A stretch of 64,000 nt of DNA from contig OMZA01000003.1 in assembly GCA_900315425.1 (NCBI GenBank), forward strand, positions 1 through 64,000, in the 5' to 3' direction. The first letter of the stretch is position 1, and the number at the start of each line of letters is the position of its first letter. The DNA is from an uncultured Eubacteriales bacterium (GTDB lineage Bacteria; Bacillota; Clostridia; Lachnospirales; Lachnospiraceae). Both the position numbers and the translations under genes were made by a program. Below are positions 18,099 through 39,321 of this stretch, one piece after another. The notes beneath the pieces are model-generated. The model saw only the letters and a list, made by a program, of their open reading frames with translations. It had not been told where the DNA came from and searched no databases.

Positions 18099-18146
18099 GG
18101 GGCTGTCGCTTTAGATGATTAAATCATCTGGGCGAAGCCCCTTTTT
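18099..18146 (+). terminator. Left-end hairpin of the IS, likely terminator
   Basis: GGGGCT...AGCCCC at the base and AGATGATT...AATCATCT at the top form an imperfect hairpin (18099-18141) followed by five T. It lies 31 bases after the HPr-like stop codon. Confidence 0.65.
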
Positions 18147-18210
18147 CATGCCAATTTTTGCGGATTCGAGCCACAAATTCTTTGCTAGTTTGCTAAAATA
18201 GAGTACTTTA

Positions 18211-18236
18211 ACAGACCGATATTATTATCGGTCTGT
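18211..18236. other. Perfect 11-bp-stem hairpin inside the IS
   Basis: ACAGACCGATA pairs with TATCGGTCTGT across a 4-base loop. It lies just after the transposase stop codon region on the minus strand, without a T run on either side; it may end transposase mRNA or be a structural end feature of the element. Confidence 0.5.
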
Positions 18237-18268
18237 AACGAGTGTTTTTAATTTTGAGATGTTAAAAA

Positions 18269-19329
18269 TTATGACGCCTTTTTTAGTTTAAACAGATGCT
18301 TACCTGTTCGCTTAGCCACGATTTTGTGATGTAACTTATTTATGTCATAGCCAATTGCCAATAGTATACTCTGTGCAAGTACATTTTCTTTTCCACGATA
18401 TAGGTATCTTCTAAAATTCATGTTCTCTTTCACATTGGCAAAAGAACCCTCTGCCTGTATGCTTCGATTCATTCTCAGTTGTGTTCCATAATCGCTGGTT
18501 ATTCGTTCAAGACATTCTGCTCTCTTTTCTTCCATCTTTCTTGATACAGAAAGCTTCTTATTTCTGTCTTCAAAAGCTGTCATACAGTTGTTTCCTTTAA
18601 TACAATCTTTCTTGTAAGGACAACTATCGCAGCTGTCACATTCATAAATCGTTATCTCACGCCGATAGCCTGTAGCTGTTTTTCTTGTGTTTTGGGATAC
18701 TGCGGTAAGCTGCTTACCATTTCTGCATGTGTAACTGTCTGATTCAGGATTGTAATCCATGTTTTCTCTTCGGCTTATATCATTCCTGAATTTCTTTGTT
18801 TTTGAAAGTTCATAATTCTGAGGTTTGATATATGCGATCTGTTCATTGGTTTCAATAAAGATATAGTTTTCTTCACTTTCATAGCCGGCATCAGCCACGA
18901 TGTTTTTATACTTGAATGTAAGGTGATTCTCCATATCTTTTAGAAATGGAATCAGCGTAGTGGTATCTGTTGGAGCTGGGAAAATATTGAGCCATGTAAC
19001 ATACTCCGAATCAACACCACGTTGTAAATTATACGCCGGTTTAAGCTGACCATTGAGCATGGCATCTTCTTTCATTCTCATGAATGTTGCATCCGGATCT
19101 GTCTTTGAATAGCTGTTTCTGGTGCCACATACATAAAGCTTATGAGTGTATTCTTTGAGCTTTTCAATAAATTCTTCAAGAGTTTCTTTCTCAGTCGTTT
19201 CAAAGTATGCAATGATATCTGATCATTGTAGACAACCTTTGAGCCATAGAGTTCTTTACATTCAGCGCAGAATACACATATCTTTTCAGTCAGCTTTTCC
19301 ATGTTTTTTGATATAGCTTTCTTCCACAC
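18269..19329 (-). pseudogene. IS1182-family transposase, truncated and frameshifted
   Basis: The catalytic DDE region is recognisable: ANKYTFVWKKA, then MRMKEDAMLNGQLKPAYNLQ, VADAGYESEENYIF, a cysteine cluster CDSCDSCPYKKDC and the C-terminal QAEGSFANVKENMNFRRYLYRG. A frameshift near 19218 splits it into two frames: translating the alternative frame restores ETTEKETLEEF and TDPDATFMRMKED. The N-terminal DUF772-type domain of about 150-170 residues is absent. No functional transposase can be made. Confidence 0.85.
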
Positions 19330-19394
19330 AAAGGTGTATTTGTTGGCAACGGATTCGATTTTTGTGTTAAATACAGTATCTCAGCACGAAAAAA

Positions 19395-19433
19395 GGACCT
19401 CGCACTAATTACTTAGTGCGACAGCCCCTTTTT
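19395..19433. terminator. Right-end hairpin of the IS
   Basis: CGCACTAA pairs with TTAGTGCG (19401-19420, 4-base loop ttac), with a degenerate outer stem (ggacct against agcccc) and a T run at 19429-19433. The inner part is identical to the hairpin at 19871-19910. Confidence 0.65.
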
Positions 19434-19462
19434 GGGTTGTGTGAAGTTGATATTGTGATGTG

Positions 19463-19870
19463 TACAGCATATTGGCTGAAACCTTTAATTATGCTGTATT
19501 GCTCTAGTTTGAGAAAAAGCAAACTTCTTTATATGCTGTATATTGAGATAATTTGATTTTCTTCATTACAGCATATTCTTGAGAAAATCATGCTATGCTG
19601 TAATATCTCAATACATTGAGATAATTTGAATTCAACTCATGCAGTAGATTTAGCAAAAACACTTGATATACTGTACAATCTTGAATTCAATAAAATCACA
19701 GACAGCAGATTCGCGAAAACCTTGAGTTATACTGTAACCCCCTGGCATGCCACCTGGAAGCTTTGGGCATAGTCAGCAGATTCGCGAAAACCTTGAGTTA
19801 TACTGTATTGCTCCATGTTGAGAAAAAGCAAGAGTACAGTATATTAGCCAGAACTTCTTTATATGCTGTA
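19463..19870. repeat. Array of seven diverged 36-bp imperfect palindromes
   Basis: Six units are exactly 36 bp: 19463-19498, 19567-19602, 19640-19675, 19701-19736, 19772-19807 and 19835-19870. A seventh is truncated (about 19523-19540). Intact units start close to TACAGCAT and end ATGCTGTA or ATACTGTA, giving an 8-bp inverted repeat around a 20-base core that begins ATT. Units 5 and 6 differ at only the first two bases; others share roughly two thirds. Intervals are 26, 37, 25, 35 and 27 bp; they also resemble one another (attgagataatttga in two, ttgctc...gagaaaaagcaa in two) and contain small palindromes. No open frame or cas gene is present. The last unit ends one base before a perfect hairpin. 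Function unknown; not a normal CRISPR. Confidence 0.85.
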
Positions 19871-19916
19871 ATGGGGCTGTCGCACTAATTACTTAGTGCG
19901 ACAGCCCCATTTTTTT
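19871..19916 (+). terminator. Perfect 18-bp-stem hairpin with T run
   Basis: ATGGGGCTGTCGCACTAA pairs fully with its complement across loop ttac (19871-19910), followed by T. It has the sequence of an intact IS1182-type end, but no transposase adjoins it. It would end any rightward transcript of the repeat array. It may be a solo IS end or part of a small non-autonomous element. Confidence 0.8.
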
Positions 19917-38962: not shown

Positions 38963-38975
38963 TTTGAAAAATAAG

Positions 38976-39321
38976 TGGAGCTGAGGGGAATCGAACCCCT
39001 GTCCGAAATCCTATTCATAAGAACTTCTTCCATCACAGTCAATATTTTAAGTTTCCCTCATATCTACTCGTATTGACACGATTAAATATTTAGTAGCTTC
39101 ATATATCTTCTTTCTACTCAAAGCTTTGTAAAAAGAGTGCCCCGCTGGTTTGATGCTGGGTCCGTCAATCACGGGAGAATCGGCGGTCAGCAAGCTGCAA
39201 TTAGGCAGCTACTGCTAAATTATTGTTAGCGTTTAATTTTAAATTTCTAAGTTTTTACGTGGGCCTAGTCCACGGATGGCTATTCAAACTTCAAGAACCC
39301 CGTCGAAACCAGTACAACCCC
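38976..39321 (-). ncRNA. ssrA: tmRNA (transfer-messenger RNA)
   Basis: The minus strand starts GGGGTTGTACTGGTTTCGAC, the typical tmRNA 5' end, and ends with the T arm GGGGTTCGATTCCCC and acceptor CAGCTCC plus A. The 5' and 3' ends pair as a seven-base acceptor stem with G-U pairs. The CCA tail is not encoded. The 346-nt length is usual. It frees stalled ribosomes with SmpB (28907-29374) and marks the product for degradation. Its promoter is at 39345-39373. Confidence 0.95.
39201..39230 (-). other. tmRNA tag-peptide reading frame
   Basis: The resume codon GCT at 39230 opens ANNNLAVAA followed by TAA. With the alanine carried by tmRNA the tag is AANNNLAVAA. The LAVAA end matches the degron read by ClpXP-type proteases. 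Confidence 0.9.

Follow-up and report, generated by a model that had tools for sequence, protein, structure and literature searches.

Plasmid iterons and partition-site repeats are short direct repeats that lie at one site of a replicon, with whole-turn spacing for cooperative binding. In Neisseria, the dRS3 elements of the NIME/dRS3 arrays are 20-bp palindromes; we know of no helical spacing rule for them. The Lachnospiraceae are major bacteria of gut and rumen. To our knowledge, no account exists of intergenic arrays in this family like the one analysed here, and no description was found in the literature searched, which covered few subscription papers. According to an excerpt of PMC3733652, REP/BIME elements are GTAG- and CGTC-tagged and are grouped with spacers of characteristic sizes. 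Insertion of IS1272, a member of the IS1182 family, into hairpins (often terminators) and without target duplication is reported in an excerpt of PMC4923244.

The window analysed here is a 64,000-nucleotide stretch from an uncultured Eubacteriales bacterium of the Lachnospiraceae (assembly GCA_900315425.1, contig OMZA01000003.1, positions 1 to 64,000, forward strand). The array that it contains is one of a family of non-coding arrays that are dispersed over the chromosome and built of inverted-repeat units of 36–41 bp.

The array in the window and its family in the genome

A sequence-only reading of the window had reported six intact units of exactly 36 bp. This is confirmed; the units, all on the forward strand, start at 19463, 19567, 19640, 19701, 19772 and 19835. 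That reading had also given all six the same 8-bp ends, TACAGYAT and ATRCTGTA. These ends are exact in three units: type a at 19463–19498 (unit model score 47.7 bits), type c at 19567–19602 and type b at 19835–19870. The other three differ from them, with two end mismatches each in the type d unit (19640–19675) and the type e unit (19701–19736), and three in the second type e unit (19772–19807). The core starts with ATT in all six and the intervals come in two sizes (25–27 and 35–37 bp), both in agreement with the earlier description. What had been taken for a seventh unit produced by deletion is indeed a remnant of a type b unit on the same strand (19503–19540). In it, a deletion appears to have fused the interval to the right half of b, and it forms the direct repeat D5 with 19852–19870. 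The left flank of the array (19429–19462) consists of poly-T and then a degenerate interval. Start-to-start spacings are 104 (across the remnant), 73, 61, 71 and 63 bp. With up to two mismatches allowed, the end pattern occurred five times in the window against a shuffle mean of 0.13, and none of 100 shuffles reached five.

The window array is a member of a genome-wide family, and no single-locus oddity. The genome is 96% complete, with 2.05 Mb in 52 contigs. When it was searched at the DNA level, 47 matching pieces were obtained on 14 contigs, although some of these are short and match the hairpins beside the array. With a model built from 45 distinct units, the family extended to further contigs. 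The model gave 87 matches at E ≤ 0.5, in which a palindrome is at times counted on both strands, and two diverged arrays, on contigs C28 and C20, were new. Arrays with three or more units, tallied by hand from the model matches, number at least 11 (C18, C19, C4, C20 twice, C25 twice, C47, C10, C40 and C28), and shorter pieces were also found at contig ends. The exact end pattern has 33 matches here, whereas a scan of 96 relatives found it in two genomes with one match each. As for the relatives of the array, the eight other genomes of the genus gave unit-model matches at chance level only (best E 0.04), and similar arrays with other arms were met in other genera. Isolated single units were noted at L140:4239–4273, L141:1578–1613 and L142:1613–1646, and these may be array remnants or chance matches.

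The forward order of the units is e – a (repeated) – b – (c) – d – e/f, and each junction has its own interval sequence. As this order is common to the arrays, the arrays are homologous copies. Intervals in the genome range from 17 to 44 bp. The step from a to b is 63 bp (a 27-bp interval) in all seven arrays in which both units are intact and adjacent. Eight a–b modules could be aligned without gaps; the identity of the L139 module to the others drops to 52–75%, with lengths retained. Among distinct 36-bp units, 45 of 47 were also aligned gap-free. The 47 derive from 60 of the 69 detected units, and the nine left out were remnants, calls of 35 or 38 bp, or units out of register, so the gap-free alignment is partly due to this omission. 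A gap-tolerant search with the unit model returned 36 bp for nearly all array units. In the eight a–b modules, 24 of 32 arm columns were invariant, compared with 27 of 67 columns in cores and interval (Fisher p 0.0014). Array copy number and unit order vary, and deletions and duplications of modules are plain to see, both as 73-bp steps in L014 and L020 and as the fused remnant in the window. This fits the earlier suggestion of a duplicated 61–73-bp module.

The older arrays occupy convergent, tandem and divergent gene gaps, a diversity that speaks against a role in regulating a single type of gene. Pfam scans of 20 proteins neighbouring the arrays gave ordinary chromosomal genes or no match, with no family in common. 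One array of the genome (L020:4965–5430) lies about 400 bp upstream of an S10-Clostridia ribosomal protein leader (RF03136, L020:5853–5933).

An IS1182-type element adjoining the array

A decayed IS1182-type element, with hairpin ends beginning GGGGCTGTCGC, occupies positions 18099–19428. Its left-hand end hairpin (GGGGCTGTCGCTTTAG...) is at 18099–18141. It is followed on the reverse strand by a transposase remnant (DDE_Tnp_1_6, 18269–19081) that lacks the N-terminal part, and the right end of the element (19400–19428) adjoins the array. A perfect hairpin (GGGGCTGTCGCACTAA ... TTAGTGCGACAGCCCC) at 19873–19908, directly after the last unit, is a further right-hand end of the IS1182 type. The genome has one other transposase match, 38% identical over part of its length. 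In the two closest relatives of the transposase, the frame is open over 542 and 545 aa. One of these, at L048 in another genus, has the 542-aa frame, is 64% identical over the remnant and has the same kind of ends; no array lies between the ends of this insertion sequence.

Ends of three contigs (C16, C17 and C34) carry the left-end hairpin, followed by the same left flank as that of the window array and by array sequence. Array units directly before the right-end hairpin were found in the window, on C19, C4 and C24, at both ends of C29 and at the start of C34. Array sequence is thus joined to three left and seven right ends. The ends match those of L048, and no contig spans a whole short copy. 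From these junctions, it appears that an IS1182-type element probably carried some array copies recently. The contig breaks would fit near-identical copies borne by the element, which would carry units a-b-c. In all seven contig-end pieces to which a simple ORF script was applied (L009, L012 and L015–L019, one side each), the nearest ORF ends towards the array, which fits the hairpin preference of IS1272.

An origin in the IS1182-type element does not account for all arrays, since at least five older ones are without its ends. No IS-end motif was detected within 7.6–10 kb around each of the arrays L013, L014, L020, L021 and L022, nor in the stretches examined of L139 and L140; L010 has no more than a similar hairpin at a distance of about 70 bp. 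The older arrays suggest that the element captured a pre-existing array. The case also suggests how an element of this type can acquire and spread array DNA.

Two other genomes of the genus, G006 and G008, gave IS-end matches, and no array was seen beside them. In G006, a lone GGGGCTGTCGCACTAA...TTAATGCGGCAACCC element surrounds a hairpin beginning CTACAGCATAG (L120:1450–1560), which may be a one-unit carrier or due to chance. Solo left-end hairpins without an array occur in the array-bearing genome at L045:1299–1343 and L146:1560–1603; they are perhaps terminators.

Arrays with other arms and the spacing of units

When the unit model was run over 397 genomes of the family, 20 had a match at E ≤ 0.01, the array-bearing genome included. 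Six of the other 19 were examined. In G153, arrays of CTACTGYA...TRCAGTAG-like units repeat every 52 bp, apart from a single step of 51 bp, and G200 has 37-bp TACAGTA...TACTGTA-like units; G291, G353, G173 and G313 gave isolated matches. The pattern TACTGYA-N20..24-TRCAGTA matched in 136 of the 397 genomes, mostly 1–3 times as in the control, with peaks in G273 (63), G219 (45), G153 (26) and G366 (9), and five each in G036 and G401. In the 258 kb of G273 and the 341 kb of G219 that were sampled, these pattern matches did not turn up, and arrays of other arm types were found. G366 has four loci with units of the TACTGYA type at steps of 52 bp (6, 2, 6 and 3 units). The same intergenic regions of this genome as hold the TACTGTA type also hold GGTGYA...TRCACC arrays with an exact 52-bp period (L291:3281–3523 and L293:3289–3792).

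We applied detectors with no sequence or phase condition to 80 named loci of Lachnospiraceae (0.77 Mb). Arrays were called in L162 (a Mediterraneibacter MAG, period 53), L193 (75) and L148 (81, 52, 92), though not each of them at every detector setting. In G219, the array L303 consists of six 36-bp units and one 37-bp unit, spaced by 61, 62, 62, 64, 72 and 62 bp. Long-arm arrays unlike the TAC types are present at L325:6359–6667 in G219 (TGCGGTCAC, period 54) and at L315:9820–10009 in G273 (TTCTGCTCAAAT, period 74). More than one arm type per genome occurs in G366 and G219. The background of the detectors was low but not nil: no array was called in shuffles, neither detector called one in 50 kb of E. 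coli, and two short matches came from 116 viral loci (1.04 Mb). Pieces of twenty other genomes (280 kb) contained no array.

Some details of single loci may be recorded here. The four TTGGACAAT...ATTGTCCAA palindromes of L148:5842–6105 lie between an IMP cyclohydrolase-like gene and the next gene, and a homologue of that gene lies about 550 bp to the right of the window array. At L252:3220–3620 in G153, two arm types (CTACTGCA and CTACGGTA) alternate at about 52 bp.

Direct sequence comparison gave little across lineages. A blastn search of 200 family genomes with an older array returned one 32-bp match outside its own genome, and an exact scan of genome contigs for one unit type returned nothing. 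Over 73 of the 80 named loci, the unit model gave 11 matches at E ≤ 5 (best 0.021), and a TACNGYA-type regular expression gave two against five for the control. The G366 arrays were not scored in register by the unit model. We also considered a core common to all families. The core AAAN1-2CTT is enriched in the units of the array-bearing genome (27 of 47) and in the TACTG units of G366 (9 of 17). It is weak in G153 (4 of 23, the shuffle maximum also being 4), and the six other families tested lack it or have it at about chance level, so that we do not claim it as common to all. An origin from phage or plasmid was rejected as well: blastn of the older array L014 against 50,697 phage records and of the window array against 72,556 plasmid records gave no match, and pattern scans of viral contigs gave single units per contig only, among the matches listed.

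A spacing of 73 bp accounts for 30 of the 57 spacings in the array-bearing genome. The rest are mostly 61–63 and 71–72 bp; 43, 52, 80 and 104 bp occur once or twice each. Across lineages, spacings cluster at 43, 52, 62, 72, 83, 94 and 104 bp. The exceptions are 80 and 81 bp, and a three-unit cluster on the viral contig L366 is off the rule with spacings of 56 and 47. When 27 distinct spacings from eight lineages were scanned for periods of 6–18 bp, the best period was 10.2 bp (R 0.78), and none of 5000 random sets matched this R at periods of 10.2–10.6. At 10.4 bp, the mean phase of the 27 spacings was −0.03 turn. Leaving out the array-bearing genome gave a best period of 10.25 (17 values). 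After near-equal spacings within a lineage were merged into 18 classes, none of 3000 random sets was as strong at any period from 5 to 20, and in leave-one-lineage-out runs the best period ranged from 10.05 to 10.30. Some arrays in the set have three units only, the lineages and classes were our own choice, and 52 bp recurs in lineages that are possibly related. As the lineages are not fully independent and the classes were chosen, the p-values serve as guides only.

A whole-turn prediction was fixed before new DNA was taken up; of the G273 and G219 contigs that it named, half were then analysed. None of the five detector values (52, 54, 73, 74 and 103 bp) was more than 0.2 turn away from a multiple of 10.4 bp, the phases being partly worked out by hand. 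Of these, 74, 103, 52 and 54 bp came from loose detector settings (L315, L322 and L325); the earlier settings gave 74, 52 and 54, together with a further array, L326, at 73. Directed reading added 62, 51, 52 and 52 for L322, and L326 read by eye gave 52, 73, 73 and 52. In G219, 36-bp units of one arm type are 51–52, 61–64 or 72–73 bp apart. With 62, 52, 54 and 74 added, the peak of the 21 classes was at 10.15 bp.

A proposed binding platform, its rivals and known systems

Near-constant unit length, constraint on the arms, absence of pairing co-variation and the spacing rule together support a binding platform. The reading that we prefer, and to which we would give an even chance, is that the arrays are same-face binding arrays for a putative double-strand DNA-binding protein. 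The earlier suggestion of sites for such a protein fits these results. A dimer of the protein, or two of its subunits, would bind each unit in duplex form, one subunit per end half-site (TACAGYAT here, other arms elsewhere). Successive units lie near whole turns apart, mostly 5, 6 or 7 and sometimes 4, 8, 9 or 10, a spacing that would align the bound proteins on one face. Proteins so aligned may touch, within one array or from array to array, and might in this way fold or mark the chromosome, for instance. The arrays may grow and shrink through duplication and deletion of whole modules. What we infer in this proposal is the protein itself, its contacts on one face, the transport of complete short copies by the insertion sequence, and an advantage for the cell, if any.

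Selection on RNA or cruciform structure, which the sequence-only reading had also put forward, was not supported. The array folds better than shuffles on both strands (z −4.0 and −4.5), and so do seven of ten single-unit strands (z −2.4 or lower). The arms, moreover, remain palindromic through changes between lineages. Better-than-shuffle folding is, however, expected of any palindrome, and the proposed hairpin pairs better than slid versions of itself, as any palindrome must. For within-unit co-variation of the arms, 60 to 367 of 500 shuffles reached the observed value in five pairing measures, so that pair counts exceeded shuffles in none of the five. The two positions of arm pair 6/31 are independent (45 units; C-G 15, U-G 11, U-A 10, C-A 9; Fisher p 0.56). 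With C-A in 9 of 45 and U-G in 11 of 45 at this freely variable pair, no strand is favoured, which again argues against RNA. A nominal p of 0.047 was obtained for the outer pair 8/29, the only one among the eight variable pairs tested. RNAalifold proposed five weak pairs only (−2.1 kcal/mol). The Rfam gathering scan of the window returned only the tmRNA gene (38973–39321, tag ANNNLAVAA) and nothing at the array, and for nine array-bearing loci it returned the S10 leader and a tRNA only, both away from the arrays. An RNA hairpin family was rejected on the absence of Rfam matches at the arrays, the lack of support from pair counts and the weak RNAalifold result. Helical phasing, too, is not expected of RNA, and arrays of hairpins selected for their stem, as processed small RNAs or mRNA-end structures, appear very improbable. 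The lack of co-variation argues against selected hairpins; together with arms more constrained than cores and intervals, it agrees with half-sites that are recognised in duplex form. Another candidate was a curvature intrinsic to the DNA, due to phased A-tracts; it was rejected because AA/TT power at 10–11 bp was not above shuffles in any of nine arrays (lowest fraction 0.09).

The main rival to the binding-array reading is a selfish REP/BIME-like repeat, that is, extragenic palindromes spread by a transposase, with no cellular role and with a spacing inherited from a founder module. Dispersal in intergenic DNA, lineage-specific sequences, blockwise copying of homologous arrays and the joining of array pieces to IS1182-type ends all speak for it. 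The only transposase domain sought, PF01797 (Y1/RAYT-type), is nevertheless missing from the genome, while 5 of 14 control genomes were positive, and the loci listed above (L013, L014, L020, L021, L022, L139 and L140, with L010 near a similar hairpin only) have no IS ends. Inheritance from a founder also leaves it unexplained that unrelated arm families keep to multiples of about 10.3 bp. A known REP or MITE family had been named beforehand as the finding that would overturn the idea of an unfamiliar array. The IS1182-type element does seem to be the carrier of some copies, but older arrays and the spacing rule are not explained by it. On balance, we consider the selfish repeat unlikely, though well ahead of the other alternatives. 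A neutral tandem satellite, generated by slippage and unequal recombination and later hitch-hiking in the IS1182-type element, accounts for the module deletions and duplications and for the variable copy number and order. It does not account for arms that are more conserved than cores and intervals, for a unit length that stays near 36 bp despite strong sequence divergence, or for helical-turn spacing that recurs in other genera with other arms, and we judge it improbable, if less so than RNA hairpins.

If the spacing rule reflects protein binding, as in the binding-array reading, the arrays would mark a new DNA-binding protein with lineage-variable sites and would offer a direct route to finding it. 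If the arrays are selfish, they would form a REP-like family without the usual transposase, and the spacing rule still needs an explanation. We raise more tentatively the possibility of an undescribed class of chromosome-organising element in Lachnospiraceae, with dispersed inverted sites of 36–41 bp, lineage-specific arms, whole-turn spacing and a fast-evolving predicted protein family, perhaps centromere-like or nucleoid-folding.

Among known systems, CRISPR differs in that the units here diverge strongly within an array and the intervals are common to several arrays instead of being unique spacers; no cas gene was found among the 15 window and own-genome proteins scanned. The first judgement that this was not a normal CRISPR thus agrees with the results. 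Integron attC arrays have gene cassettes between their sites and an integrase; the intervals of 17–44 bp in the array-bearing genome are too short for such cassettes. Some copies look like non-autonomous derivatives of the IS1182 family (compare IS1272/TnSha1 in the excerpt of PMC4923244), in that the window array and several contig-end pieces adjoin such ends; older arrays are without them, however, and the array is cargo, absent from the insertion sequence in L048. NIME/dRS3 elements resemble the present case as arrays of small inverted repeats alternating with variable intergenic sequence. The likeness to REP/BIME lies in the units, which are imperfect palindromes in the 20–40-bp range, extragenic and dispersed in many copies. 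The differences are that the units read TACAG...CTGTA with a base after CTGTA that is mostly not G, so that no GTAG or CGTC tag is present as a rule, that a RAYT-type domain (PF01797) is lacking from the genome, and that the units keep one orientation along an array, a near-constant 36 bp and helical-turn spacing. The units of G153 do end in GTAG, and the test for a REP tag fails for the family of the array-bearing genome only. With iterons, the arrays share sites a whole number of helical turns apart (apart from 80 and 81 bp), but here the units are long and inverted and occupy many chromosomal sites. We therefore group the arrays, as a new variant, with the dispersed palindromic repeats, and see a fair chance that they are a new class.
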